A stretch of DNA of 64,000 bases from contig NC_087377.1 in assembly GCF_963675165.1 (NCBI RefSeq), positions 5,456,042 to 5,520,041 on the forward strand, given 5' to 3'. This document shows, piece after piece, positions 19 through 63,456 of this stretch. The notes under the pieces are model-generated. The model saw only the letters and a list, made by a program, of their open reading frames with translations. It was not told the origin of the DNA and made no database searches. The stretch comes from Halichondria panicea (taxonomy: Eukaryota; Porifera; Demospongiae; Suberitida; Halichondriidae). Position 1 is the first letter of the stretch. Each line of letters starts with the position of its first letter. The position numbers were made by a program, and so were the translations under genes.

Positions 19-2914
19 ATTCACCCTTTGCATCTGCAAGCACCTCTCCACAAGCTTCACAGCCTCCCGAGGTACCTGACTGTATAAGATTGCTAAGTGA
101 ATGTTGAGATTCCCTACTGATCAGCGATGGATCAGATATTTTGTGTACACTCTATAGCTACATGTATAGAGCATTCATGCTCAATATAATTATATCCACG
201 TGCATGCATGAATACTAGTTTCATATTCAACTCTGCATGGTGGTACACAAAATAATAATACACATGCATGTGCAGACAGAGGGGATGCAGATGTTTTGTA
301 CCACTGACAAAGAGGAGCTGGAACATGTTGACTCAGCTGATCCCTACAAGATCCCAACAGATACTCAGGGTGCATGGGTAGCACCACACCACTTGCTGTG
401 GGATGTGAAGCAACTTCCCGATCTGAAAGTGTATTTTTTGAATCCGGAAATTCTTGAGGATGAGCACTGGAAATGTGGGCATGCGGGTCCCTTAACAGTC
501 GACATTATCCTGGCTTGGGCCGCTGTCTGGAATAGCCATGCTGATCACTACCCTAAAATTTCTAATTATGTAGCAAAAAGGGAAAAAGCTCATATCCGGG
601 TGATATTTAAGAAGGACAGTGAGTATGCTTATGCAGTTGTATCAAGCTAGAAATTAAGTGAGATATTATTTTATCACCACCTTTGAAGCATGCAGTTCTA
701 TAATTATAAAACCCGACTATAGACTACCTATCGATACACCATTTCAGGCACAAACATGAGTCACATGTTCTTTTCTTGTACATGCATGCAGAGAAGGTGA
801 TCTCATCGTCAAAGGTCGGACGTTCGGCATTAGATGTTGACACGAATGAGCCGACAATGGTGCTCAACTTGTATCGCATGACAAAAGCTCTCCAGAGAAG
901 CATTGTGATTCATGAATTTGGCCATGCTCTAGGACTGTATCATGAGCATCAGCGATCCGACTTCTGGGATGTGCTGGAATCAAAAGACAAGGACAACCAG
1001 TATCGATTCATTATTGGGATAGATCAAATGAAAACTGGAGATGGTGGTAATTGCAATCCAGCTGTTGATGCTGTGTTCAGAGATGATAATGCGCCACTCG
1101 AAAGTCAAAAATCCAGTTACGACCCAGACAGCATTATGCACTATTGGTGAGTTAACTATAAATTATGGTTATTTGGGGCAATCCGCATAATGATAGCAGC
1201 TGTTACAAAACTAACAGTAATTTGTATAATAATAAATTTTAGCAGACCGTATATTCAATGGTTTCATGTAAATGGTGTACAGTGTATAACAATTAACGAA
1301 TGATCAATCCCAATGTATAGGTTTGACACAAACTGGTTGTTAAAGAAGTATCGAAAGCGTTCAAGTGTGGCTAAACATGTGGAAGATGAGCGAGAGAGAA
1401 AGGTGTTGTTGGGAGTTCATGACCGTGACTACCACAATGGGCAGCTGGCAGAAAATCCCTCCAAGCTAGACTATGAAACATTGAATAGGGCTTATGAAGT
1501 AATAAGGTATTATGAGCTCTTGACACAATTATACATGTATGCACAATACTTTCGATTTTACTGGTCAATTTTTGAGAGTGAGCTGTCATTGTCAGGTCCC
1601 CAAGGTGTGTTCCGCCAATTATCTTCCCTCTCATTTGTTACGCTCAGCCAATACTTGCCCGTATTTTCGTCACAACAAACTTTACACTCTTCACTGTCAC
1701 TGCATGCAGACTCATGCTAATCCATGAATACATAATTATGGTTAGCCGGTTTAAAATTGTTGATCATTAATCCAACTGCAGGTGGTATTTTATCGAGCAA
1801 TGTATTATAATGATTAAGCGATGTAACTCTATATATTTATGCAGAGATCCAACTCTATACATTCAGCAATGGTAAGGTCATTCATCGAGCGATGAATAGG
1901 GTTAGCCCGCGGCCTTTAATCAAAGTACGCATGCCATTATTTCAGTCATGAATGTTTCTCTGTCTATTCATGTATACTTTGTTAAAGGCTACGGTATACA
2001 GTAACCTTTGAACCCTACACTCGTATTCGTCACGCGATGCATGACCTATCGTCACTGTATGTATAGAGTTGCGTCCCTGGATAAATATAGAGTTACATCG
2101 CTCGATAATTGTATTACATTGTTCGATAAAATACCGCCTGTAGTTGTAAATGATCACATGCAATTTTGAAACAAATGGCTCTCCATAAATTCATGTACAT
2201 ATTTATAGTGCCATAAATACATGTACATAATTATTTATACTGCTAATAGAGGGCTGTAATAATGGTCATATGTATTATAATTATGTGAGTCAATATAATA
2301 ATTTGCAATGTATAGCGGGCAAAGGTTGCCCATAACTACAGTTGCTGATGGCCCTCCAGGCATTTCCCAGAAAACAAAGCCTGAAGGTGAACACGTTGCA
2401 TTATTATTTAGAATCAGGCGCTGGTTATTATTGTTATCAGTGTTGTACTCCAACATAATAAGCCTGCCATGCTTACAAATTTAATTATTATGTCCTGTTT
2501 TGAACTTAGACATGACATTGTACTAACGTGTTACTTATACTTATAGGATCATCAATAGGATCATCATCAGAAGAGTATTCCAGCAAACACCCGAAAGTGG
2601 TAGAAACTGTGAAACAATCAGTTGTTTTGAATGAAACGGATATTTTAACAATTTGTGAGAAGCTGAAGAGTGCTCGCAAAGATTGGTTCGATTTGGGAGC
2701 GGCATTTGGACTGAAGTATTCACGGTTGAAAGACATTGAAGACCTATACCCTGATAATAAGCGCCGCCTAAGGGAGATGATAAGCAAGCGTCTTGAAGGC
2801 GCTGATTCAGATAATCCAGTCACATGGCCCTACATCTGCGAATGTCTAAGAAGTCCTACTGTTGAGCGTAAAGATGTAGCTAATCAACTTGTAGCAATAG
2901 GACTATGTGGCTAG
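19..2914 (+). CDS. Astacin-type metalloprotease with C-terminal death domain (gene 1, 5' end outside window)
   Basis: Inferred exons: 19-71 (Ser/Pro/Gln-rich linker), 276-618, 792-1146, 1321-1498, 2342-2386 and 2547-2914 (stop TAG). Exons 276-1498 form a zinc metalloprotease domain. The active-site helix HEFGHALGLYHEHQRSD (911-961) fits the astacin (M12A) signature HExxHxxGxxHE, and SIMHY (1130-1144) is the Met-turn with the extra tyrosine ligand. The last exon encodes a death-type fold with WFDLGAAFGLKYSRL near its middle and a TWPYICECL helix. Family knowledge: astacins are zinc endopeptidases, usually secreted; death domains are cytosolic interaction modules. The combination suggests an intracellular protease wired to DD signalling (inference). 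No signal peptide is visible because the gene starts off the window. Phases agree except after exon 1321: its paralogue ends in phase 1 just after TATG, but here the only GT lies 2 nt later, giving phase 0. An exon may be missing, or the donor has shifted. Confidence 0.75.
1740..2183. mobile_element. Small TIR element inside the last large intron of gene 1
   Basis: The outer roughly 110 bases at each side are imperfect inverted copies of each other. On the left GGTATTTTATCGAGCAATG faces CATTGTTCGATAAAATACCG on the right, and a GTTAGCCG / TGGCTC-type end flanks a TTCAAAATTG stretch. The right half (1937-2180) is also similar to 23345-23592 and 33125-33392, where the same words occur (ATGTCTTTCTGTCTAT, then AAAATACCGCTT). 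This makes it a dispersed non-autonomous family with at least three copies here, two of which arose by the 9-kb duplication. No coding sequence is seen. Confidence 0.5.
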
Positions 2915-3225: not shown

Positions 3226-5082
3226 TTATACTACTACACTGCAAGTAAGGACAAGTTCTATAAAGCTAATGGCTAGACAAGTCTCGACACTTTCATTGAC
3301 CTGCCTTTGTATTCTAGGAGGGCCTTTTAACAAATCCAAATAATCCACTACCAAATGCTGTGACTTTTCCCAATCATATTTACTTAAAAAAAACTGTGGA
3401 AATGTTACGATATGGCCACGAATTTGTCGTATCAAATTCCATTTTGATTTCTCAGATAAGGAATTCGGTTTATTTTTCCACTTTTTCAAATCTTCCTCAT
3501 TAGTGACGGTGTCAATTGGAACGATTTCTCCCTTAAACACCTCTTCATATATCTGAGTATTTCGGGCAGCTATTTTCGTGAGACTTTTACGGAAATGTTG
3601 ACTAATCGGATCACTGACATCGATATCAACATGCAAACCTTTTAAAATCCCGAGATGCTCCTTAATGAGATGGCAACGTAATGAGTGAGAGAACTCGCCT
3701 ACTTTATGTGAACTTCCGTTCATTTTTACAACAATCATTTCTTGGTCTTCAATTATCACATTTACTTCAGAATCTCTGTATCCAAGCATGCTTCGATCAT
3801 TAATATTTGCTGAACCAATGATTGTAAGTCGGTCGTCAACAATCATCACTTTGCTGTGCACATAAATCTGCTCGGTAGTGAGAATGTCATTTATTAAGTC
3901 ATAGGTACGCAATCCATAGACACTGATATACTTCTCAACAGACACATTTTTAACGATTAACTTTCCAAATAGGGATTTCACTCCTTTGAAAAGTGTGAAA
4001 TAAATTTTTTGGGTTTGTAATTCGAGAAAATTAGGACTGGATAAATTGCTCAGTTCACAGAATTCTCCAGGAAGATCTGATTTCAGTGGCAACACAACCA
4101 TCACATGAAAGTCCTCATTGTTCTCATCAGCTCTGACTATTCTATCAACAAGACTTTTTTGGATTGTATTTTTAATTGTTGTGTCATCCTGTGGACCAGA
4201 AACAAAAAACTGGTTCTCTATGTAAATTGAATGGTTTGATACGTTAATAGCATGGAGGTAAGCTTTCAAGATAGAATTTTCCAGACGTTGATTTGCAGAC
4301 CAGCTTGTAGCAGAACGAACCACTTGAATCTTTGAGTTCCTGGTACTCGGATTCTGTATGCGATGAATAACATTTGGACGATGCTCAGGGAGCTTATGCC
4401 TAGTCCGGATTGCATTGAGTCTTTGAATAAAATGATTTGCAACATCCAAAGCTGGCTCTCCGTTAAACATACAAGATGCATCATGCCAAGGCAGTCGAGA
4501 GGAATTGGGGAAATCTTTGTCTGTTAGCCTATGATTAGATGTATCCCATCGACGTAAAGCTAGGTCAATTCCACCTACAAAGGCAAGACCTCGATCAATA
4601 ACGACTAGCTTCTCGTGATGACTCCAACGTACAGTATTCCTGAACCAATCGTGAGGATGATGAAGGACAGTTATGTTTGCATTCACAAGTACATTAGCAT
4701 CCTTATTCCCGAGTTTGAGGACATCAATTGGATCGTTGTAGAGCAGAATATATATCTGAACACCTTCCATTGCTTTTTTCTTAAGGAGCATGTCTAGTCG
4801 CCACTCCTCAGTGGCATTGTTGGAATTTGAGCGCTTCAAAGACAAATTATAGCAGAACTCCCAGCCGGTTATTAAAACTTCATAAGTTGCATTGTTGATG
4901 CCATCAGCCACTTCAGACATGTAGTCTTTTCCATCCACAAGCCATTTTACCTCATTTGGACCATCTCTTACTGGTGCAAAAGAATCGAATCTGTTAGATC
5001 TACCAGTTGGCAACTGAGTTGCCCTAGAGCTATGAGTGAGAAGGCCTAGACTAACAGTTATAAACAAGCACACTATTAACAT
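3226..5082 (-). CDS. Phospholipase D-like protein, intronless, with signal peptide
   Basis: Single open frame of 618 codons from the ATG at 5082. The frame is open for 37 more codons upstream (to 5193), but those run into an inverted-repeat element. The 5082 start gives a typical signal peptide (LIVCLFITVSLGLLTHSSRA), so I prefer it. Two HKD motifs are complete: HEKLVVID followed by FVGGIDLALRRWD, and HSKVMIVDD followed by IIGSANINDRSMLGYRDSEV. LPWHDAS lies between them. These resemble the catalytic core of eukaryotic PLD1/PLD2-type enzymes, which hydrolyse phosphatidylcholine to phosphatidate and choline. No PX or PH domain precedes the core, and the product should enter the secretory pathway (inference). 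The gene is convergent with gene 1, its stop 311 bases from that of gene 1. Lack of introns beside intron-rich neighbours suggests a retrocopy or horizontal transfer. Confidence 0.9.
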   Translation of the reverse strand: MLIVCLFITVSLGLLTHSSRATQLPTGRSNRFDSFAPVRDGPNEVKWLVDGKDYMSEVADGINNATYEVLITGWEFCYNLSLKRSNSNNATEEWRLDMLLKKKAMEGVQIYILLYNDPIDVLKLGNKDANVLVNANITVLHHPHDWFRNTVRWSHHEKLVVIDRGLAFVGGIDLALRRWDTSNHRLTDKDFPNSSRLPWHDASCMFNGEPALDVANHFIQRLNAIRTRHKLPEHRPNVIHRIQNPSTRNSKIQVVRSATSWSANQRLENSILKAYLHAINVSNHSIYIENQFFVSGPQDDTTIKNTIQKSLVDRIVRADENNEDFHVMVVLPLKSDLPGEFCELSNLSSPNFLELQTQKIYFTLFKGVKSLFGKLIVKNVSVEKYISVYGLRTYDLINDILTTEQIYVHSKVMIVDDRLTIIGSANINDRSMLGYRDSEVNVIIEDQEMIVVKMNGSSHKVGEFSHSLRCHLIKEHLGILKGLHVDIDVSDPISQHFRKSLTKIAARNTQIYEEVFKGEIVPIDTVTNEEDLKKWKNKPNSLSEKSKWNLIRQIRGHIVTFPQFFLSKYDWEKSQHLVVDYLDLLKGPPRIQRQVNESVETCLAISFIELVLTCSVVV

Positions 5083-5190
5083 GATTCTTTCACTTAGAAA
5101 TTGATTGTGGTAAATTTCTGCATTTGGGTGTATGATATGAGGCCAGATGATGATGACTAAATTAACCTCCTGAACGGCTTCATGGCGCGG

Positions 5191-6030
5191 CAAAGCCCAG
5201 AGGAGGTGCGAAGCACTTAACCTTTGCTCATTAGGTCTCTAATTGCCGTTGTGTTAATTGCATGCCAGTCTCGTAAATTAGCCGCCCTTCCTAAGTGAGA
5301 GACCTAGGAAGGGCGGCTGATTCGTGAGACTAACCAACAAGCTGAAAGACATCATGCAAGACAGCCTGGAGCAAAGAGCTTGCCATCAATAGAATCATGT
5401 CAGGGAACACTCCAAAACAACCAGCTATAAGAAGCCATCATCTATGAGAAGTTATATCCAGGACCATGCATGTACCACAGCAGAAGAGCCTGAGGCCTCC
5501 TTTTACAATGTATATACGTATAAAGTGGACCGTACATGCATGCTACATGCAACAAAGGCCAGCTATTGAGAAGCCTGGCCAAAATCTCATCCGCCCTGTG
5601 TTCGACTGTGGGAAGGAGCAGCTCAATACTTGACTGAAAGTGGTCGCAAAGCAGCTAGGCTAAACGCACAAGTTAGTTTTATTCTCTGTGTTACGTTTTA
5701 ATAATCCACTCTCGTTCACACAGTTAATGTGCATGTGACGCTCATTCAACTCTAAAATGATCTTGTTGTTGCCAAACCAGTTCAAGATACGACAAGAAAT
5801 GAAGATTTTGATGAGCTCGAGCATTCTTCCTCATTAGTATTCACACCTGCAAGTGAGAGAGATCTTTATAGCAGTTCACTCCTGTGTACCGATGGTTAGG
5901 CTCTTGAATCAGCCGCCCTTCAGGTAGGAAGGGCGGCTAATTCATGAGACTGGCATGCAATTAACACAACGGCAATTAGAGACCTGATTAGCAAAGGTTA
6001 AGTGCTTCGCGCCTCCTCTGGGCAAAGCCC
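5191..6030. mobile_element. Inverted-repeat element next to the PLD 5' end
   Basis: Arms of roughly 130 bases (about 5191-5325 and 5905-6030) are inverted copies: the left GCGAAGCACTTAACCTTTGC and TTAATTGCATGCCAGTCTC recur reversed on the right. Each arm also holds its own smaller hairpin, AGCCGCCCTTCC against GGAAGGGCGGCT. Related sequence (GGCGGCTGATTCATGAGACT, then a CCTCCTCTGG end) occurs at 57617-57740, and a fragment lies near 41200. No open frame of note is present in the 580-base centre. It abuts the likely PLD promoter and first codons. Confidence 0.6.
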
Positions 6031-15500: not shown

Positions 15501-16998
15501 TTGGCAGCAACATTGTAAGATGCTGAACTTTCTCATGACAATTATATACAATGGCTACACCTTCTAAGATATCAAGCAGCTAGCATTTATCATGCCAATA
15601 TCGATTGGCTATACACCTTCGAAGATATCGAGCATGCAACTAGTATTATTGTGCAGTTGCTCGATGCACGTCAAAATCATTATAGGCTTATAGCTACTTC
15701 TCTTATACATGCACACATCATAATTATAACCCAAAATCACAATTCGCTCATGCTCGCCCCAAACATGACTGTATTATTTTGGGGGTTTTTAGTGGGAATC
15801 TCTTATAAGACATGCTCATGTTCATTGATTGGAATGCACCACTCCTCCTCCTTAGCAGTACATGGTTCCCAACATGGTGCCCCAGTGGCTGCTACTGCAA
15901 GTTTTCTACAGGGTGATCAATCTGGTGCACAACCGGAAGGTGAGTAGCACCCATGCACACATTAATTAATGGACTAAGTGTGACAATTAGGCTTTGTGCT
16001 ATTTAATTGTTTAGTGCATGCTCAGTTTATTGTGGCGAAATAATAATGTCTCTATTACGCATACAGATCCTATAGCCTTAAGTCATCGCAAAAGAGCTTT
16101 GGCATCAGATAAAGAAGTTGAAACTCCTTCAAAGCGTTGGAAAGAGGATATCGGTATGCTTTATTTTCATAATGAGTTTATAAATACATTGATTCAGTGA
16201 ACGGCTTTGGCCACACACACTAAAAACCATTTGTTTCTCAGGCACGCCTGCATGCTTACTCATTAAAAAAACGACGTATAATTGACCTTTGACATTTTTT
16301 ATGCGATGATGTGAGTTTTTTTATTTTTATTATGCTGATGCCCTGTCAAAAATGTGCATTCCCGCATCCGATTTTAAGGAAAAGGCCTGAAAAACAAGTG
16401 ATTTAGCGTGGGAAACAACTGTTAATTGTATACAGACACAAAGACATCCAGTTATGTATATGAGTCCCAACTTTTATATTAACAACACAACATAACTCAG
16501 GAGAGAAGGTGTATTATGGACAAATTGCAGCTTATTAATAGCTTAGAAATATGGGGTGGAGCCCCCCCTTCCTACGCCACTGTATAATAATACATAAGTG
16601 CAGATGATTAACTGGCTATATATAAGTACATCATACGATGCTTATGTTTATACAATAGCATTGTCATCAGTCGAGGGGCATCCTAACAAAAACCGTCCTC
16701 CGATCCCATTGTACTTACTGGAAAGGATGTTCAAACAATTTGTGTGACGTTGGTGAACGCATGCAATAATTGGTTCAATTTGGGATTGGCTCTTGGAATG
16801 AACTATGACCAGTTGGAATCTATCCAAGATCAATTCCGTGACAATAGTGGTCGCCTAACAAAGATGATAGCCAAGCGTCTTTCAGTCACTGATCAAACAA
16901 ATCCAATGACATGGTCTTACATCTGTGAATGCCTAAGGCGTCCTACAGTAATGCGTTATGATGTAGCAGAAGCAATTGAAAGAGAAAAAGGACTATAA
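9599..16998 (+). CDS. DD - astacin-type metalloprotease - DD protein (gene 2)
   Basis: Inferred exons: 9599 (ATG at 9623)-9947, 10019-10051, 10874-10941, 12278-12611, 12747-13074, 13292-13467, 14449-14475, 15859-15939, 16067-16153 and about 16659-16998. Phases join correctly through exon 16153. Exon 1 encodes a roughly 105-residue DD-like fold (IEHLKDIAPDVESYKKFA, then VLWWREFN and VNDCLKLREPNLA). Short acidic or Ser-rich linkers follow. The protease carries HEFGHALGLDHEHQRSD (12869-12919) and the SIMHY Met-turn (13058-13072). Exon 16067 encodes a basic linker (HRKR, then PSKRWK) that could act as a nuclear localisation signal. The last exon is a second DD (NWFNLGLALGMNYDQLESI). The protein would be about 590 residues, with no signal peptide or membrane segment in the exons found, so probably cytosolic (inference). 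In the DD frame an in-frame TAA at 16684-16686 separates the domain from the expected phase-1 acceptor, so the 3' exon is frameshifted or uses another acceptor. Astacins are normally secreted; a protease flanked by DDs is unusual. Confidence 0.75.
10986..12091. mobile_element. Nested TIR element in an intron of gene 2
   Basis: The ends TGGTGAGCCTTTTGTTTC and GAAACAAAAGGCTCACCA are inverted copies of about 55 bases, flanked by TA at 10984-10985 and 12092-12093. A second inverted pair lies inside (11053-11110 against 11405-11460, sharing TCATTAGGAAGAGTAC). A third region (about 11483-11925) is bounded by GATTCCAGG...CCTGGAATC with GGCGAGTTT/AAACTCGCC, resembling the 9-bp-TSD family. Imperfect direct repeats of CGAGTCGATCC(C/T)TACCAGAT lie at 11910-12035. 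The open frame at 11466-11726 shows no known domain. Confidence 0.6.
11112..11199. repeat. Three-copy minisatellite
   Basis: Three tandem copies of a roughly 30-base unit with AACCTTAAAACCA followed by GGGGCGTTTCTCC. It lies inside the intronic TIR element. Confidence 0.8.
14151..14819. mobile_element. TIR-bounded repeat that encloses a small exon of gene 2
   Basis: AGGGCCGTAAGAA at 14151 and TTCTTACGGCCCT ending at 14819 are perfect inverted ends, each followed inward by C- or G-rich runs. The 27-nt exon 14449-14475 lies inside. No clear target-site duplication was found. Whether the exon came with the element or the element ends flank older sequence is open. Confidence 0.45.
14820..15858. 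other. Intron sequence
   Basis: No exon is recognised between the 27-nt linker exon and exon 15859. ATGCA-rich low-complexity words are frequent. The short open frames here have no recognisable features. Confidence 0.4.
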
Positions 16999-19533: not shown

Positions 19534-19612
19534 ATTACACGATGTCATAAATAAATACAGGGTGTGCTATTAATTACCACTCACTAGACTTTGATCGTAA
19601 TTATGACTGTAG

Positions 19613-19992
19613 GTGCTCAGAGTGAACCTAAACTTGTTACCAGAACTGAAGAGGCAACACAATCTGGTCGAAAAGGCGGAAGAGATCCACCTGCTAGCAG
19701 CCCAAAGAGAACAAAAGCAGGAAAGATCGAAGGTGAGCAAGTTCTCATGAAGATTGGCCGCGAGCTTGGAGACCAGTGGATGGATGTTGGTGTGGCATTA
19801 GGAATGAAATTCATGGACCTTAAAAACACAATTGAAAATAACCCCAAAATAAAGCACCACCTCAAACCAATGGAGATGTTGCAGAAGTGGCAAAGTAAAG
19901 CTGGTGACTCTTTTACGTATGCAACACTGGCGTCAGCACTGGAAGAAGTTGGCCTCGATACTTGTGCACAAACACACTGTTATGAACAATGA
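19613..19992 (+). CDS. Death-domain terminal exon, copy A
   Basis: The open frame begins after a CTGTAG acceptor with a phase-1 join (G+GT) and ends at a TGA. The N-terminal 40 residues are charged and basic (SGRKGGRDPP, SPKRTKAGK). Then comes a death domain of about 85 residues with QWMDVGVALGMKFMDL, KPMEMLQKW and TYATLASALEEVGL, which fits the family pattern of a central Trp, LGM and a helix-5/6 W. The upstream exons of this transcript are not identified. Its phase would allow splicing from the phase-1 linker exon of gene 2 at 16153, about 3.5 kb upstream, as an alternative 3' end (inference). It is nearly identical to 29056-29435. Confidence 0.75.
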
Positions 19993-28958: not shown

Positions 28959-29055
28959 CACGATATTATAAATAAATACAGAGTGCATGTGCTATTAGTT
29001 ACCGCTCACTAGACTTTGCATATACCTGATCGTAATTATGATTCAATGACTACAG

Positions 29056-29435
29056 GTACTCAGAGTGAACCTAAACTTGTTACCAGAACTGAAGAGACAA
29101 CACAATCTGGTCGAAAAGGCGGAAGAGACCCACCTGCTAGCAGCCCAAAGAGAACAAAAGCAGGAAAGATTAAAGGTGAGCAAGTTCTCATGAAGATTGG
29201 CCGCGAGCTTGGAGACCAGTGGATGGATGTTGGTGTGGCATTAGGAATGAAATTCATGGACCTTAAAAACACAATTGAAAATAACCCCAAAATAAAGCAC
29301 CACCTCAAACCGATGGAGATGTTGCAAAAGTGGCAAAGTAAAGCTGGTGACTCTTTCACGTATGCAACACTGGCGTCAGCACTGGAAGAAGTTGGCCTCA
29401 ATACTTGTGCACAAACACACTGTTATGAACAATGA
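29056..29435 (+). CDS. Death-domain terminal exon, copy B
   Basis: It follows a GACTACAG acceptor in phase 1 and ends at TGA. The same domain layout as 19613-19992: a basic linker, then QWMDVGVALGMKFMDL and ATLASALEEVGL. Only a few residues differ between the copies (for instance IK for IE and LN for LD), and the frame is intact in both. This argues for recent duplication or conservation. The parent transcript is unknown. Confidence 0.75.
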
Positions 29436-38659: not shown

Positions 38660-41220
38660 GAATTATTTGAGGTATCCTATATTCCTCACTCACCTACCTA
38701 CACACGTGTGCTGTCTCCATGATTGGTAACTAAACAGTTGTAGAGAGCATTATGATCCTGGGAAAAATGAGGCGCCATTTTGAATAATGCTAGCTTAATC
38801 AAAGGTTATGGCAATTGACCCTTTAATGAGTCCCCATGCATGCATGCACCCTCTTTAAACATGTCACCTGAATCCACATGTCAAAATTAAAGGTGTACCG
38901 TATAACGGGTAATTTTCTCATTGGTGCACATTTTTGTATGAACTATATACCTGTTTAAATTTTGTATTTTGCAGCTCCTATAATAGCTCATCTGTTTCTG
39001 AGATAATTATATAGCCTCAAAACAAACTGTAGATTGTTTCATAACTGCAGTATTTCATGATTCCACTATCTTATACGTATATGCAGTTCACTATACCTAT
39101 ACCTATACATGCAGTCGATATAGTAATTTACGATGAAATATAACAACGTGAATTTACGATGGAATATGACAGCATGTATGATGTCATAATTATAACATCG
39201 TCCACGATGGCATATTTCATCCGAAATTACTACATGCACAACATAGTATAAGGATGATGATTTTTGACAATACATGTATTGTCAAAAATCATCATCATAA
39301 TTATACTGGCACTGCTATTCCTCAGAGGTCAAAAGGCAACAAGTAATAGTTGTGACACATGGGGCCTAAGTTACTACTGAGCCAATATTATTATATCCCA
39401 TGTGGCACAACTATTACTTGTTTTCATTGACCTGAATTCCTATACATGCACTTATCAGCCACTGTAGTGGGTATGGTGTGTAAACAATCACTGAGCCATT
39501 GTTATCGGTGGTATTCCTTCTGGTGAGAGAGGTATTTGCTTTTCACATCACCTGTTTACCAGAAGCCCAACTGCAAGTGCTTTCGGAAGTAAGGTGCCTG
39601 CATGTACGTTATTATAAGGAAACTGTTCGTTTACCATGAAAAAGTAAATTGTATATAATTATCATTATACAGGTGTATATAATTATTCTGAAATTTTTGG
39701 CCATATGCATGTCGAATGTCACACTCCCATGCAAAGTGCTTGATGGATTACAACTGCTGGAGACATGTGTATCTATATAATTATAGCCGCACTAGGGATA
39801 CAGTAATGCTGTGCGTGCATGTGTGCATGTATTCCAGCTGTAATTGCTCCAACGAGACGAAAACTAACAGCGGTTTCTAGCAACGTTCTCTTGGATTTTG
39901 ATTCGTGGATTTGCAAACTAAAGCTTTCTTCTCGAGAGTCATGGTGAAGGCTGTTGCAGTCTCCTTAGAATCTTTCATATAGCATCGTCTGTTCGCATAA
40001 AGACTCTACCGTATAGCGGGTAATTTTTGTGGGGTAAAAATTTCAAACACTGATTTTTGTGAGTAAAAATTTTGTTTGACTTTATTGCCTGTACTGTATA
40101 TCGAGGCAATGTATTGCATGCATTGTTCCGGTATAACCCATGCCTACATAATTATAATATACATGTACAACAGTAAATTGATATGCATGGTTGTAAATAA
40201 GGTGACAATTATTTTCACAGGTAGATTTGTTTGCATTTTCACTGTTTAGCTCATTTTGCTGGTATTACATTCTGCAAATCATAGATCTATTACTCGCCAG
40301 TGGTTTTAATGAGCATTTTTTATCTGCGAGTACACATTTTCCGATATTTTACTCTCATTCGCACAAATAGCATGCAGAAATGATGATATGACACAAGTCA
40401 TGGATAATGACTAGATCTACTCATGAATAATTATACTTTCAAAAGTGGGTGGTACTATGAATTACTCAAAAGAGGTGGATAAGACAATGAAAAGTATAGA
40501 TCTGTAGCTAACAGAATCAATGTAATAAGTCAAGAGAATTGTTTTAATTACTGTGCAATATCAAATTGAGGAGCAATGTGAGTTAGTACTGGATCAGTAT
40601 ATAGCAGCTTCTCAGCTGCTTATTATTATTGTTTCCTATAGATATATAGAATCTCTATCTATATTCTTACACTAGTTCACCATCGATGATTTTAAAAACT
40701 TGACAAGCGAGAGACTGAGTAGATCTAAATCTAGAACACTGTTTCCTACAATGCGGTGTTTAAACTGTATGCCAAGAAAACTTTACTTATAATATTATTA
40801 CTAATAGTCACTGGCATATCTGAAGTTACGTTGTATTAAGTCACTAGATCTACTAAATCCTGTTTTACCAATCAGATCAAGGATTGACAAAATAAAAAGA
40901 AGCGTATGCGTTCTCTTACAGTAGGACGCATTTATAACTAATAGTCAGCCTAACTGTGGCTGCTGTTAGCCAGTCAAGGAGCTATAGTAAGTCGAGTTGA
41001 CTGCACTAGTGCTGTGCAACCTTTTTCTTGTTCTTTTAGCAACGTTCTTGGAGCAAGCCAAACAAAAATTCATAGCAGCTAGTCAAGCGTTTACGGTTGA
41101 CCTTTTGCATGCGTTGGAAGTGACACTGACGTAATGACAATTAACATTCCATTGTGGAATGACCTCTAGACTATAAAGTGCTCAGACTGACTCTCCAAGG
41201 CAGGCTGATTCATGAGACTA
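38660..41220. other. Intergenic repeats before the 2A gene
   Basis: It contains the second copy of the 7740-8040 repeat (about 39090-39580) and a perfect 44-base palindrome at 39253-39296 (GATGATGATTTTTGACAATA and its inverse). A degraded MITE end (ACCGTATAGCGGGTAA) lies at 40010, and a dispersed repeat at about 39830-40000 recurs at 55290-55490 (CGTTCTCTTGGATTTTGATT, GAAGGCTGTTGCAGTCTC). No supported coding exon. The promoter and any 5' non-coding exon of the 2A gene should lie in the last kilobase. Confidence 0.5.
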
Positions 41221-41354
41221 CCGTAAAACCTCGATTTAAGGCGACACTTTTAAATAATTACGTTTTGCGAAAGTAGTTTTATGTACACAAAAAAATGGGC
41301 GAAACGTCCAAGTGTCGCATATTTAGAGGGTCGCCATAAATAGAGGTTTTACGG
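41221..41354. mobile_element. 134-bp MITE just upstream of the 2A gene
   Basis: CCGTAAAACCTCGATTTAAG faces AAATAGAGGTTTTACGG, with TA on both sides (41219-41220, 41355-41356). The inside carries GCGACACTTTTAAATAATTA, shared with the nested element at 53809-54138. It ends 67 bases before the preferred ATG. Confidence 0.8.
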
Positions 41355-41421
41355 TAAGAGTGATTATTAAGTGAAATTTTCCAGCAATAAATGTTTTCAT
41401 GCATGTATTCCAGCTAGATGC

Positions 41422-43074
41422 ATGGAGGATTGGCCGGCTTATGAAAGCAACTGCAGCTCAGTTGAATCAAGTCTGTTGGCTAAAGATGCTACCACCTATA
41501 TTGATATTAAGTGCTTAGCAATGGTTAAATCAATCCAAGACAGATTCAATTTTAGGAATGTTCCTCCCTCAAATAACTATTACTACGAAGATGTAGGTTC
41601 CGATCATGAAGAACCAGTGACTAGCACAGCTATTCATAGCCCTAATCACTTGAAAAGAGTTTGTTTTGGTTTCACAACTACTGTGCTGATTGTGATTGGA
41701 GCATTAGTCGTTTTTCTTCTCCTGTTATTGGCCGGAGATGTGGAGATAAACCCTGGACCTGGACTAGGTATATATTTCCTGATGTTTTAATTATGATACT
41801 ATTTCACTTAATGTGATGCAGATACTGTTCTGACTGTCTCTGACCTATTTGAGGTGTGTGAGAGGGTGAAGAGTGCTAGTCCGAACTGGTTCAACTTGGG
41901 ACTGGCGTTGAAGCTGAGCTATACCGATTTAACCAACTTTCATGAGATGTACGATGACAATTATGTGTGTTTGCGTGAGGTCCTAGCTCATCGACTGCAG
42001 ACAGGTGTTCCTCTAACTTGGGGAGGTATATGTACTGCTCTCAGGCACTCTACAGTGGCAAGAAATGATGAAGCTGAGGAGATAGAGGAGTACATGTATG
42101 CACAAAGTAAGTAGCTGTGTGTAAGTAATGGCATACGTCTCTAATGATGCATAATTTTACATATAAATTACATGCACACATTTGCAACAGGTAGAGAGAA
42201 AGAAGCACTCAAGGTAAATCATTGCATTGGGTATAGTACCTATAGGACAGGTTACCATAAATTGCATTCAACATGTATGAGCCATGCACAGTTGATTTGG
42301 TATCAAGAGTCTATAATAAAGCATTAATTTACTTCAGTGTGTATTTGGAAAGTAACGTTACTTCCTGCTTTGTAACTGATCAATCCGAGTGCTTGGAGCC
42401 GCCACTTGCCTCGAGGCAGCGATAATGTTATTACCAAATTGTCATTTATTGATTGATCATGCGTTACAAACAGGAAGTCACGTTACTCTCTGAATACATT
42501 TGATGCAATTAAGGCAAGACTTTGTTGGATCTCTTTTATTATGGATTAATAATTATATTCTTGTTACTACAACTATTACTAGGGAATTTAAATTTTAAAA
42601 ATAGAGCAGCGCTGAATTATTAATCTGCATGAGTGAACCTTCCCAGCTTTTTCATATAATTATACAGATAACTCAAAGCACTCAGAAAAGCGATTCATCA
42701 GACGGTAAGATTTTATTATTATTATTTTTTATGTTTGTTAATAATTATGATGCTATAGTTATTGATTATCATTGTGCTCCAGATTCTGTTCTGACTGTTT
42801 CTGACCTACTTGAGGTGTGTGAGAGGGTGAAAAGTGCTAGTCCGAACTGGTTCAGCTTGGGACTGGCGTTGAAGCTGAGCTATACCGATTTAACCAACTT
42901 TCGTGAGACGTACCGTGATAACAATGATGTGTGTTTGCGTGAGGTCCTAGCTCATCGACTTCAGTCAGGTGTTCCTCTAACTTGGGGAGGTATATGTACT
43001 GCTCTCAGGCACTCTACAGTGAGTAGAAATGATGTAGGTGAAGCAATAGAGGAACACTTTCATGGTGAGTGGCT
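41422..43074 (+). CDS. Membrane segment - 2A-like motif - tandem death domains (3' end open)
   Basis: Exons: 41422 (ATG; an upstream acceptor may lie at 41412)-41770ish, after which a G completes phase 1 at GGACTAG|GT; then 41822-42106, 42191-42213, 42668-42704 and 42783-43074. All joins keep phase (1, 1, 0, 1), and the last ends in phase 1, so more exons must follow. Exon 1 encodes about 80 polar residues, a hydrophobic segment VLIVIGALVVFLLLLLA, then GDVEINPGP, the 2A ribosome-skipping consensus D(V/I)ExNPG|P. Exons 2 and 5 are near-identical DDs: NWFNLGLALKLSYTDLTNF and NWFSLGLALKLSYTDLTNF, each with PLTWGGICTALRHSTV. Family knowledge: 2A sequences make ribosomes release the upstream peptide and go on from the proline. 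Here that would give a 112-residue membrane peptide and a separate soluble DD protein, with some uncleaved membrane-anchored DD protein (inference). Confidence 0.75.
41731..41760 (+). other. 2A-like ribosome-skipping site
   Basis: Codons for AGDVEINPGP. The predicted skip lies between GGA (41755-41757) and CCT (41758-41760). The invariant Asp, Glu, Asn-Pro-Gly and Pro are all present. The residues just upstream are a leucine-rich hydrophobic run, as in the 2A sites known from the N-termini of sea urchin NLR proteins and of some non-LTR retrotransposons. Activity is not shown by sequence alone. Confidence 0.8.
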
Positions 43075-44454: not shown

Positions 44455-45933
44455 TCACTCTTTTGTACATTGGTTCTCACAGTTGTCAAAAGAAATTTTA
44501 TTCGGATTTCCAGAGCTAGTGAGTCTGCTAGTCTCTTCTTTTGCAATGACTTCGAAGTCCCGTTTAGAAGAACAAGCAATAATATCAGACACTGACTGTT
44601 TCTGTTCCATGGAAGTGCGTTCATACACTCGTAGACCTTCTGTACTGCGATGACCAGTACGTTCAGCTATTAACTTCTCTGGAACATTTGCAGCAAACAA
44701 TCGTGTGGCCCCAGTAGCCCGCAGACTGTGATTTGTTTTTCCATATATGCCAACTTGCTCACACATTAGTTTGACAAGGTTTCCTAGGAGCTTTTTGCCA
44801 CAGGTCTGCATCGTGAACCAACAAGCGTCTGCATCTGTAGGAAGCCTTTCCTTGGCTTTCCAGTAGAAGGAATCGTCTTCCTTGGCTTTGGTAGGCAATT
44901 TATCTAAATATTTCTTCAGCAAATACACATAGCAGCGATCGCCTGAGGATGGGTCAGAGAAATGCCTGATAACTTTGTTGTCGGTGTTGTCTTTATAGCT
45001 TCCTGATCTATTCTTCGAGCCAAACTCAATGTATTCGACATATTCACGCTTATTTTCAACTCCAAAAGTGAATTGGGATAACTTAAGAGCCCTGTGCCCG
45101 CGCCCTCCTCTCAGGCATAAAACTTTTCCGTTCATGAAGAAGATGGTAGAAAATAGACATTTCGGAGTTGAAGATCCCAATACTTCACGATCCCAGAGTT
45201 TATCTTCTTCCTCGTAGGTAATCACTTCCGCATGTTTTACTGAGGAACCAACACCATCTTCTCGTAACTGGCGTGAAACAGTGTCTCTAGTCCCTCTTAG
45301 TCCATCGAAACGATAATCATTCTCGTCAAAAAAGTTTGGGAGAATAGGGTCTACCGACGTCATGTGACGTCTAATTCCAGCCAAAAGCAAATCGATCGTT
45401 TTTGAAAGGTAGGGACTGCCATTTTTTTTTTTAGCTTCCATTACAAACAGAGAAAGCCACTTGTTCAGAGCAGTAGCATCAACACAAGTGAGAACATCAA
45501 TAGGTACCTTATCATCAGTTTCTTTATGGGAGCTGTTTCTCCATTCACACCAACAGTAGAACACTTGAAGGGCCCAACTCGTATTATTCTTAGTGTTTGC
45601 AGGTACAAAGCCCTTGGATGCAGTAGCCAGAGAGGTAAGGTTGGTAACTGTACTGCCAAATCGAGATGCACCAGTAGATATGCTCGCACTAAAACTCGCC
45701 GCACAATTAGTCACGTCTTGAAGTTCCTGGTACTTCACTCGCTTTGCTAGACGTGGTTTGGAGACATAGGACAGTGCCTCAGTGCCTAAAATGAGTTTGT
45801 CAGTAGGTATGGCATCCCAGTCAATTTTTGCTGCATCTTTTTCGGCTCGCAACATTATGGAGGTACTTACTACCTCTTCCCAGTCGTCGAGATCTTCAAC
45901 CGTTACATCAGAGAAATCCAAATCTAGAGCCAT
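44455..45933 (-). CDS. Crypton-type tyrosine recombinase, intronless
   Basis: One open frame of 492 codons with an acidic start (MALDLDFSDVTVEDLDDWEE). The catalytic residues of the tyrosine recombinase fold are in order: an arginine in LCLRGGRGHRALKLSQF (about residue 280), HSLRATGATRLF (His-x-x-Arg, about 406), TGHRS (about 430), and the nucleophile Tyr in LRVYERTS (about 440). A helical N-terminal core-binding part precedes them. This layout matches Crypton transposases and their domesticated animal relatives (KIAA1958/ZMYM/QRICH1-like). It should cut and rejoin DNA through a phosphotyrosine link. The frame is unbroken, so it is either recently active or under selection as a host gene. It starts 31 bases from a 1.2-kb inverted repeat. 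Cryptons lack TIRs, so I cannot define the element ends. Confidence 0.85.
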   Translation of the reverse strand: MALDLDFSDVTVEDLDDWEEVVSTSIMLRAEKDAAKIDWDAIPTDKLILGTEALSYVSKPRLAKRVKYQELQDVTNCAASFSASISTGASRFGSTVTNLTSLATASKGFVPANTKNNTSWALQVFYCWCEWRNSSHKETDDKVPIDVLTCVDATALNKWLSLFVMEAKKKNGSPYLSKTIDLLLAGIRRHMTSVDPILPNFFDENDYRFDGLRGTRDTVSRQLREDGVGSSVKHAEVITYEEEDKLWDREVLGSSTPKCLFSTIFFMNGKVLCLRGGRGHRALKLSQFTFGVENKREYVEYIEFGSKNRSGSYKDNTDNKVIRHFSDPSSGDRCYVYLLKKYLDKLPTKAKEDDSFYWKAKERLPTDADACWFTMQTCGKKLLGNLVKLMCEQVGIYGKTNHSLRATGATRLFAANVPEKLIAERTGHRSTEGLRVYERTSMEQKQSVSDIIACSSKRDFEVIAKEETSRLTSSGNPNKISFDNCENQCTKE

Positions 45934-45963
45934 CGCTCATATAGTCATAGCTAGCTCACTAGC

Positions 45964-51819: not shown

Positions 51820-52390
51820 CCCATCAAATGTATCCAAGCATAAAAGAGTTAGAAGCAGATTCTATGAAGATGGAATCACAATTCTCCATGCTTGTGTCAG
51901 ACCTGTGTCGATCACTTCAAGTTCGACGAATTCCAAAAGATTCTTTAATTGCTAGTTTGATGAGGTTTAATTGTCTAAAGAAGGTGTTTGGAAGAAAAAA
52001 AAAAAAATCAGAGTGTTTTCAGAGCTCAACGAAGGAAATTGGAGGACTGCTCAACTAGTGAAAATGTTTGGCAAATTATTGGAGACTATTTCTCCTTCTT
52101 TAGGTATGACATGATTGAGCAGATTACACACAGCTTAGGATCAGACGAGGACAAGGACAAAATGAAAATGTACAAGATAAACTTTATTGAATATGCTAGA
52201 CGTCGACTAGTAAAATCTAACGGGGAAGTACCGTTTCTACAGTTTCTGTTGGATAGTTCATACGACGATTGTGAACTCAGTCATCTGAAACTGCTCGAAT
52301 GGAATCTACAATCAATTTTAAACTTGGATGATGAGGTTGTTTTAAAAGTACAGGGCCAATCAAGTGAAAGGGATTTTACGGCCAGTTCAG
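51820..52390 (+). CDS. Candidate effector-domain exon, frame broken at A13
   Basis: It follows a TTTTCATGCAG acceptor in phase 1 and ends at TTCAG|GTGAGA in phase 1, so it behaves like the DD modules. The first frame runs to a run of 13 A (51995-52007). The second continues directly after it, so one insertion or two deletions would join them into about 190 codons. The text is helical and charged: IKELEADSMKMESQFSMLV, VWQIIGDYFSFFRYDMIEQI, DKDKMKMYKINFIEYARRR. I recall similar unnamed helical repeats in sponge and cnidarian immune-type proteins, but cannot name a family. The break could be an assembly error, a pseudogene, or ribosomal slippage on the A-run. Confidence 0.5.
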
Positions 52391-53336: not shown

Positions 53337-54173
53337 AGAGGAGGTACGACATGTAGGAGCAATTACATGTAAAATTGGAAATTAATTGGAAATTTTTGCT
53401 GAGTCAGCAAATACGTTCAGATACAGAAAACTCAGCGTTTGCAGAGTCCTATGGCTAATAAAAACAACAGGCAGCAATTGCAAGATCACTTCTATATATG
53501 TAGCTAGCTTGTTAGTTCTCAGGTATAAGGTCACTGTATTGTATATTCGCTGACTCGACATGTAGGGCAATTACTATTACATAACAATCACGTGCTACGA
53601 ATATTGTCATGTCAGCAAAATATGTGTAGCTACGTTGATGCTCAATACAGTGACCTTATACCTGAGAACTAACAGGCTAGCTACATAGAAGTGATCTTGC
53701 AATTGCTGCCTGTTGTTTTTATTAGCCATAGGACTCTGCAAACGCTGAGTTTTCTGTATCTGAACGTATTTGCTGACTCAGCAAAAATTGTCAATTAATT
53801 TCCAATTACCATACTTATTCGATTTAAAGCGACACTTTTAAATAATTATGAAGCCAGAGGTCGTTTCTTTTGGAGGTTGAAAAATTATGTTGAAGTCCTG
53901 GTGTCGCATATTTAGAGGGTCGCATCTAATTGGAGGTTATTCTACTGTCCTCGATTATAGGCCGCTTAAATTACATTGTTTTTTGCGGCCTGGAATCGAG
54001 GCTGCGGTTTGACCTCTATTTAGGATGCGACATAAAAAAATAATTGTGAACGCTGCAGTCGCTATTTTAGAGGTCAGAAAATTGGAAAAGATCGAGTGTC
54101 GCATATTTGGAGGGTCGCTTTAAATCGAATAAGTACGGTACATCTAATTGCTCCTACATGTCGTACCTCCTCT
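53337..54173. mobile_element. Foldback element with 11-bp target duplication, hosting a second element
   Basis: The ends AGAGGAGGTACGACATGTAG and the inverse CTACATGTCGTACCTCCTCT carry arms of about 220 bases. The perfect 11-bp direct repeat GATGCACTAGC flanks it (53326-53336, 54174-54184). The right arm is interrupted by the element 53809-54138. Without it the element is about 507 bp. Long TIRs with 9-11 bp duplications suggest Mutator-like transposition. Confidence 0.85.
53809..54138. mobile_element. 330-bp TIR element nested in a foldback arm
   Basis: CCATACTTATTCGATTTAAA faces TTTAAATCGAATAAGTACGG, with TA on each side (53807-53808, 54139-54140). The uninterrupted partner arm (about 53368-53380) shows the empty TA site. 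It shares GCGACACTTTTAAATAATTA with 41221-41354. Confidence 0.85.
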
Positions 54174-61689: not shown

Positions 61690-63456
61690 AGGCATGAAAA
61701 AGAACTGTGTGATCATATGGAAATCTCAAAGTCGATATATGAAGCACAACTTGTTGAGGAGTTTGCCCACAACAACAGCAACAAAATCTACAAATACATA
61801 AATAGTGTTCTGCACAACAACAGCCTACCTGTAGCAATGCATCTCAATTCTCACACTGCCACATCTGATGCAGATAAAGCTTCTCTCTTTAATGAGTATT
61901 TCGAATCAGTCTACTCCAATCCCACTTCTAATGCCTCCCATACCCACACTCTCTGTTCAGGAACCTCTGTTCTGAATAATATTGCCTTCTCAGATACTGA
62001 AGTATACACAGCCCTCTCAAGTTTGGATCCCTTCAAAGCCTCAGGAACTGACGGTGTATAGGTTCTAGGATACTAAAAACATGTTCCCTTGCTCTTTACC
62101 CAGTGGTACATCATCTGTTTAAAATGAGCCTGGCTAGCTGCAAGCTCCCAAAGGAGTGGAAATTACACTGCATTATCCCAATATTTAAGTCTGGGGACAA
62201 AAGCCTTATTTCAAACTACAGACCGATCTCCCTTCTATGCTCGATCTCTAAAGTTCTTGAAAGGATTGTGTATGATAAGGTGTTTGGGTTCATTGGCCAA
62301 TCAATATCGAAATCCCAATATGGATTCCTGAGGGACCACTCATGTCTGCAACAACTATTCTCTTTTTTGTCATGCGTTGAAAAGTCCCTAGAAAGAAGAT
62401 GCCAGCACGACACGATATATCTTGATTTCCAAAAAGCATTTGATAGAGTACCCCATAAGGAACTTCTCTTCAAACTCCATGATCTGGGGATTTCCGGCAG
62501 ATGGTTTAAAGAATACCTTACTTCTAGATGGAAAATGGTACCATCAATGGTCACCACTCAACTCTCCTACCGGTATCTTCTGGAGTTCCGCAAGGAAGCA
62601 TCCTTGGGCCTATGCTTTTCCTGGTTTATATCAATGATCTTCCTCTTAGCATTAACTTCTCTAATATTCATATCTTTGCAGATGATACCAAATGCTCTCA
62701 TCAGATGAAATCAACCTCAGATACAATTGAACTACAATCAGACCTTGATATGCTGAATGATTGGAGCAACAAATGGAACCTCTCTTTTAATTCTCAAAAA
62801 TGTGTGTTGTTGAAATTCTCTAAAAACCCCTCACTCTTTATAAACTCCTCTTTACTTCCTTTCGGGGAGGCAGATCTCACCAAAGGAGAGTCACAGAGAC
62901 CTGGGGATAATACTGCAACAGGATCTGGGCTGGCACAAGCATTATGACAGCATTTCTGCTAAGGCATACAGACAACTAGGTTTACTCCGCCGTACTTTCT
63001 CATCATCCAACTCAGTATATACCAAGAAGAAGCTATATATACCTGTCACTGGTTCGCTCACAGCTGTTGTATTGCTCACAACTTTGGAGACCAATGCTAG
63101 TCAAAGATACTGAAGCTCTGGAGCGTATTCAGAAGAGAGCAACAAAGTTTATCCTAGGCAACTCTGATGGTGACTACAAGGAAAGACTAGTGAAGTTAAA
63201 GTTACTTCCTCTGATGTACTCCTTTGAGCTGGCAGACTTAATGTTCTTTGTTAACTCATTTAAAACAAAACAAATCGTTTCTGCATTACAGATTTCGTCT
63301 CAATATCCTGTTCTAACACAAGGTCATCTGACAAGCTCACCCTCCGTCACACCAGATCAAGCCACAATCAACACCGTCATTTCTATTTTAACCATCTGCC
63401 CAGACTGTGGAACTGCCTACTGGCCATTGATATGTCTCTCTCATCTCAATGCATAA
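61690..63456 (+). pseudogene. LINE reverse transcriptase with several frameshifts
   Basis: In order: a linker with SSLDPFKASGTDGV (stop soon after, 62059-62061), then LPKEWKLHCIIPIFKSGD, NYRPISLLCSISKVLERIV and YLDFQKAFDRVPHKELLFKL (62103-62520). Next, in another frame, come SSGVPQGSILGPMLFLVYIN and the active site IFADDTK (62560-62700), then the C-terminal CSQLWRP and IQKRATKFILGN (63067-63456). At least three frame breaks make it inactive. The apurinic endonuclease is absent. It is the same family as the minus-strand relic at 37509-38652. It lies between the arms of 61179-63927. Confidence 0.85.

Follow-up and report, generated by a model that had tools for sequence, protein, structure and literature searches.

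We estimate, with a probability of about three in four, that a sequence in the genome of Halichondria panicea is a StopGo (2A) element in one member of a large gene family, in which a small N-terminal membrane module is separated co-translationally from a death-domain (DD) protein. The site lies in a 64,000-nt stretch of NC_087377.1 (forward strand, 5,456,042–5,520,041), here called the window, from whose first letter window positions are counted. By analogy with published systems, one mRNA would probably yield two products, a small membrane peptide and a protein of cell-death or immune signalling. The sequence, the in-phase exon model, the DD fold, the genome-wide association with DD and NACHT domains and the retention of the motif were computed here. 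Skipping, tunnel geometry and two-way localisation are carried over from background knowledge and published work on other 2A sequences.

The 2A exon and death-domain exons of the window gene

The coding part of the first exon considered, exon A, runs on the forward strand from the first in-frame ATG to a phase-1 donor (41422–41767), is delimited by comparison with paralogous exons, and encodes the membrane module together with the 2A sequence. A possible acceptor, ag, lies 5' of 41414. The module ends in a hydrophobic segment, FGFTTTVLIVIGALVVFLLLLLAG (41665–41736), which also provides the leucine-rich upstream context ending in (A/S/C)G of a described StopGo motif class (PMC12846837), here LLLLLAG followed by D. 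The core DVEINPGP follows directly at 41737–41760, in frame and in agreement with (D/G/C/N)(V/I)ExNPGP, and the break is predicted between the Gly (41755–41757) and Pro (41758–41760) codons. A putative phase-1 intron of 54 nt (41768–41821) leads to the first DD exon (41822–42106, donor AAA/GTAAGT), of which a second DD exon (42783–43064) is a tandem duplicate. Between them lie two candidate small exons, SREKEALK (42191–42213) and ITQSTQKSDSSD (42668–42704), each with a counterpart in the paralog L063; all these features are on the forward strand. The two larger exons are assigned to the death-domain superfamily because they show the six-helix death fold and resemble solved DDs in sequence, and the 2A sequence is N-terminal to the DEATH domain. 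The observation made in the sequence-only reading, of a canonical core that has a fitting upstream context and is flanked by a hydrophobic segment and in-phase death domains, is real on the predicted exon model. An Rfam scan of the window gave no matches.

The product had been described as a DD-only adaptor, which is doubtful. Members of the window family are found on contigs C1, C11 (four), C12, C4 and C3, and two paralogs, L062 and L063, continue past the DD into a domain of ∼240 residues, followed in L063 by a further DD (29.5 bits); the window family is therefore not DD-only. Pfam gave no match for the ∼240-residue domain, and the best PDB hit (E 0.86) was unconvincing. A homolog of this domain of L063 (the 'YFSFF' domain) is present in the window as a putative exon at 51837–52341 on the forward strand, with a frame break at 13 consecutive A, and it is uncertain whether it is part of the window gene. 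No NACHT was recognised in the L062 and L063 ORF lists, from which selected pieces were scanned with Pfam, or near the window site among the at least 102 NACHT matches scored.

The window copy could itself be a paralog in decay, in a family that is otherwise functional, with the gene unused and its 2A exon and DDs still open owing to recency or gene conversion. We regard this as a serious possibility, though one that we would bet against, and it is compatible with the StopGo reading for the family. The structural features fall on both sides. Exon A keeps an open frame and canonical splice sites, as do both DD exons, whereas the N-terminal WRARIGL block of the module is missing (none was found across the 64-kb window) and a MITE-like inverted-repeat element (41219–41356, arms 41219–41253 and 41322–41356) lies directly 5' of exon A; pieces related to it occur at 53819–53938 and 54095–54128. 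The frame break in the putative downstream exon would also speak for decay, but a 13-A run is a classic place for sequencing error, and the break may be either that or a real frameshift.

Sequence divergence is similarly divided. Against seven paralogs, exon A has a dN/dS of 0.42–0.67 at a dS of 0.65–0.95, which argues against decay, whereas the window DD, also against seven paralogs, has a dS of 0.09–0.25 and a dN/dS of 0.49–1.36, and by itself is without a strong signal of constraint. As the dS of exon A is several-fold above that of the DD, the two seem to have different histories, which suggests conversion or exon exchange; this difference and the dN/dS of the DD count on the side of decay. 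In a comparison with ten paralogs (nine for the intron and the DD), identity is highest in the core (87–97%), followed by the DD (80–91%), the segment just upstream of the core (71–90%), the intron (65–80%, with one at 95%) and the far part of exon A (65–72%). That the core and the DD are better kept than the intron of the same paralogs is a further point against decay.

Genome-wide sites and their association with death and NACHT domains

The sequence-only reading had suggested a search of sponge DD genes for DxExNPGP. We ran this on the present genome (assembly G000, 131.5 Mb), using the codon pattern GAYNTNGARNNNAAYCCNGGNCC for the exact core, and found 116 sites, compared with none for the reversed-pattern control. 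Leaving the second codon free did not alter the total (71 + 45 sites; reversed controls 0 and 1), and the second residue is V or I at every listed site. When other first residues were allowed, there were 118 conforming sites, 116 with D and two with N. Copies occur in tandem arrays, such that site counts are counts of non-independent events. Flanks were read at 105 of the 116 sites, the other 11 all being on contig C14. At these 105, the core is immediately preceded by AG at 47, SG at 42, CG at 12, GG at two, RG at one and CR at one, and a 17-residue hydrophobic run occurs within 40 residues upstream of the core at 87 of the 102 sites where this was measurable.

The Pfam Death model is too weak for this branch of death domains: the window's two DDs are absent among the 148 Pfam matches listed, and on the same strand it places a DD within 2 kb downstream of only 5/116 sites and within 2 kb upstream of 1/116. 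A local HMM built from the window and paralog DDs was therefore used to scan up to 1.5, 1.2 or 0.75 kb downstream, depending on the locus. Of the 105 sites, 71 (53/85 plus 18/20) proved to have a DD downstream in the same orientation; none was detected on the opposite strand downstream of the 105, and none in the 450 nt upstream of the 2A sequence at the 85 sites tested. The reverse comparison, starting from the DD query alone, agrees. Of 564 candidates, 150 DDs were scored, and 62 of these have a 2A sequence within 1.5 kb upstream on the same strand, with none on the opposite strand and none downstream at that distance; widening to 3 kb gives 66 DDs with a same-strand 2A sequence upstream and two with one downstream, the opposite strand again giving none (these counts include the two N-variant sites). 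The exon boundary is also shared. A GT donor seven bases past the Pro codon, in phase 1, as in the putative first intron of the window gene, is present at 57 of the 71 DD-positive sites and at 4 of the 34 sites with no DD.

NACHT domains show the same polarity. Among the at least 102 NACHT matches scored, no fewer than 14 of the 116 sites have a NACHT in the 10 kb that follow on the same strand and none has one on the opposite strand, whilst four sites, in tandem arrays, have one upstream on the same strand. With this number of downstream NACHT domains, several families (on C14, C15, C13, C6 and at 10.2 Mb of C1) look like genes for 2A–DD–NACHT receptors, as in the sea urchin.

Retention of the motif and alternative origins

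To follow retention, we used queries that end short of the 2A letters. An upstream piece of the C14 type has 47 matches, and in 45 of these the exact core comes within the next 60 nt; the remaining two places read NVEANPGP, and N at this position (p12) is a functional StopGo variant (PMC12846837). For the WRARIGL-type module, 32 matches fall at 30 loci, 26 of which carry the exact core. All four loci without it have stops or a broken frame: L126, L127 and L128, for which three frames were read, and a fourth with two stops. Loci found by the upstream module alone thus nearly always keep the motif. Retention is not restricted to intact copies, since the core is also kept in some copies with a stop or frame break (C13:4031031, C5:3080211, C4:4176070 and C2:209374). 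Among public relatives, an expanded core is present in 40 of 43 proteins. The other three are P0022, which is frame-broken, P0039, which has YVELNPGP, and P0007, which has NPGA. P0007 reads LLLLAGDVESNPGA, a natural form expected by the usual rule to be non-skipping. For two public relatives, P0034 and P0023, no near match over the full length exists in G000 (the best being 71% over 38 of 95 residues, or 50–52% over almost the whole length), and these hence come from another genome or an unassembled copy. In an alignment of 13 modules, picked for having the core, 11 rows have an exact WRARIGL and one a variant of it, whereas the row of the window copy lacks it, and the leucine-rich end and DVE.NPGP appear at 75% consensus, with the middle scrambled.

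These data bear on whether the NPGP is inactive, or nearly so, the genes then encoding plain membrane-anchored DD proteins and NLRs in which the leucine-rich run is a mere membrane segment. Such segments have no need of D(V/I)ExNPGP; nevertheless almost every copy retains the core, even as the stretch from the N-terminal block to the hydrophobic run is scrambled, and both the core and the residue preceding it match the described StopGo class. Whilst P0007 is an example of an open module that does not have the standard core, and putative membrane-bound NLRs have been reported in sponges (PMC12909245), we consider an inactive motif unlikely.

The 34 of 105 sites with no DD in the stretch read are of several kinds. 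At least five are followed by PHD-finger-like retrotransposon ORFs (L012, L014, L016, L028 and L079), and two (L015 and L085) by a zinc-finger-like start. In the C2 array of 11 copies, six are without a DD and five have one. In nine others (L058, L064, L072–L075, L080, L087 and L088) the first half of a DD seems, from the sequence, to lie in the same exon as the 2A; two pieces of this class were scanned and have no Pfam match. Several of these nine are without a long hydrophobic run. A further four (L066, L083, L084 and L086) have hydrophobic stretches before the 2A and Ser/Thr-rich sequence after it; of the three scanned with Pfam (L066, L083 and L086), only L086 gave a signal, a sub-threshold bZIP-like coiled coil.

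The presence of 2A sequences ahead of PHD-finger-like ORFs in the same genome, and their known occurrence in such elements (PMC4981915, PMC11512398), raise the question of whether the window motif is the remnant of a non-LTR retrotransposon whose ORF started with 2A, its junction to the DDs being an accident of insertion. We think this very improbable, more so than an inactive motif. Exon A has paralogs of its own, most of which read as preceding DDs, and the five PHD-type sites have neither the shared donor position nor the 17-residue hydrophobic run, although the zinc-finger-like sites L015 and L085 do have such a run upstream. In the window gene no PHD, endonuclease or reverse transcriptase was found, and the sole reverse transcriptase match in the ORFs scanned (5 + 9 proteins) is a piece at 62052–62708 on the forward strand. 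A retrotransposon ORF was accordingly rejected as the identity of the window gene, which does not have these domains after its 2A; a remote origin of the window-type 2A from a non-LTR element may nevertheless be envisaged. A chance occurrence of the motif is ruled out by the reversed-pattern controls together with the same-strand-only DD association.

Proposed mechanism and relation to known 2A systems

If the window site acts as a StopGo element, the leucine-rich nascent chain in the exit tunnel would block formation of the Gly–Pro bond at NPG/P. The first product would be released with its hydrophobic run near its very C-terminus, and the ribosome would continue to make a DD protein starting with Pro and free in the cytosol. 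From the dimensions of the ribosome, a hydrophobic run that ends at the 2A core should remain in the tunnel during skipping. Because the run should still be inside the tunnel at this point, the first product would be expected to behave as a tail-anchored peptide, without dragging the DD to the membrane. Ribosomes that do not skip would make a fusion, in which the now internal hydrophobic run would serve as a signal anchor and carry the DD into the secretory pathway. For several sister families, the protein set free would be a DD–NACHT receptor (NLR).

The expected pair of products, a DD protein in the cytosol and a small peptide carrying a hydrophobic run at its C-terminus, is drawn by analogy with the 2A of a sea urchin NLR, for which ∼80% skipping in vitro has been described, with the downstream protein cytosolic and the non-skipping form mainly in the Golgi (PMC4981915). 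Among StopGo sequences, the leucine-rich motifs 2 and 6 end in (A/S/C)G with D at p12; motifs 1, 3, 4 and 6 were assayed, with activities from about 92.7% to almost 100%, the leucine-rich motif 2 not being among them (PMC12846837). It had been supposed that imperfect skipping would leave a membrane-anchored pool of the adaptor. This is unsupported: with the hydrophobic run ending at the core, and hence expected to be in the tunnel, the unskipped product could equally enter the secretory pathway, like the sea urchin non-skipping construct. An anchored DD adaptor is possible, and requires that the unskipped form be inserted with the DD facing the cytosol, for or against which the charges flanking the window segment give no decision.

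The sequence-only reading had also taken the use of 2A on a DD-only adaptor to be a new arrangement. A 2A before a death domain is already known from sea urchin NLRs of DEATH–NACHT–LRR architecture, ∼35% of which (85/241) have a 2A-like sequence at or near the N-terminus (14/87 in current NCBI entries) (PMC4981915), and genes of the 2A–DD–NACHT type occur in the present genome too. Overall, that interpretation stands in so far as the arrangement is genome-wide and kept in most copies, whilst novelty, DD-only character and the anchored pool have been either changed or left unsupported. A literature search found no paper on 2A in a sponge death-domain gene. What is new, as far as this search shows, is the scale of the 2A–DD combination in this genome, the exon-encoded membrane module with its conserved boundary, and the use before tandem-DD genes with no NACHT seen.

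The closest known system is SpNLR2A of the sea urchin (PMC4981915), where D(V/I)ExNPGP likewise comes directly after a hydrophobic run and N-terminal to DEATH in a large innate-immune multigene family, as it does here, with NACHT downstream in several of our families. The sponge module differs in its length, ∼70–165 residues where the WRARIGL start is visible as against 26 in the sea urchin, in usually having a conserved phase-1 exon boundary at its end, and in its additional occurrence ahead of tandem-DD genes where a NACHT was not seen, the window gene among them. The hexapeptide ending in (A/S/C)G, the D at p12 and the (V/I)ExNPGP are shared with the leucine-rich StopGo motifs 2 and 6 of RNA viruses (PMC12846837), but here they belong to a cellular gene rather than a viral polyprotein, and the leucine run is of transmembrane length. 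The 2A of APE-type non-LTR retrotransposons (PMC11512398) has the same core in a genomic ORF, and such elements are present in this genome; the window gene differs from them in its boundary as well as in its domains. Lastly, the putative membrane-bound NLRs of sponges (PMC12909245) have transmembrane segments in a NACHT-protein architecture, whereas the 2A core described here would give two separate proteins.

Natural use of StopGo is described as mainly viral, with very few instances in the coding sequences of cells (PMC12846837), whereas here one animal genome has 118 conforming sites, with most of those read linked to DDs. If they are active, the sea urchin case would be extended to an animal branch that is probably much earlier, as well as to DD genes in which no NACHT is visible, gene models of membrane-bound NLRs would have to be read differently, and translation and immune signalling would be joined by a directly testable link. 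More tentatively, StopGo may be a standing part of innate immunity in an early-branching animal, with dozens of DD proteins and NLRs released from a membrane or signal module during their synthesis; we hold this to be possible rather than likely. As the hydrophobic run should sit in the ribosome tunnel at the moment of skipping, the state of translation, for example in infection or stress, would then set the share of product going to the cytosol or the secretory pathway, and the sponge NLRs described as membrane-bound would for the most part be pairs of separate proteins.

Several other ORFs were seen in the window. Other ORFs of death-domain or DD-like type, none with a 2A core, lie on the forward strand at 2615–2899, 16705–16983, 19588–19992 and 29013–29435, those starting at 19588 and 29013 being near-identical. 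Just past the DD exons, a 493-residue ORF on the reverse strand (44455–45936) has matches to DUF3504 and QRICH1-like proteins and weak ones to phage integrase; we take it to be a Crypton-like tyrosine recombinase. Pieces of a phospholipase D-like protein (3226–5238, reverse strand) and of an astacin-like peptidase (710–1150, forward strand) are also present.
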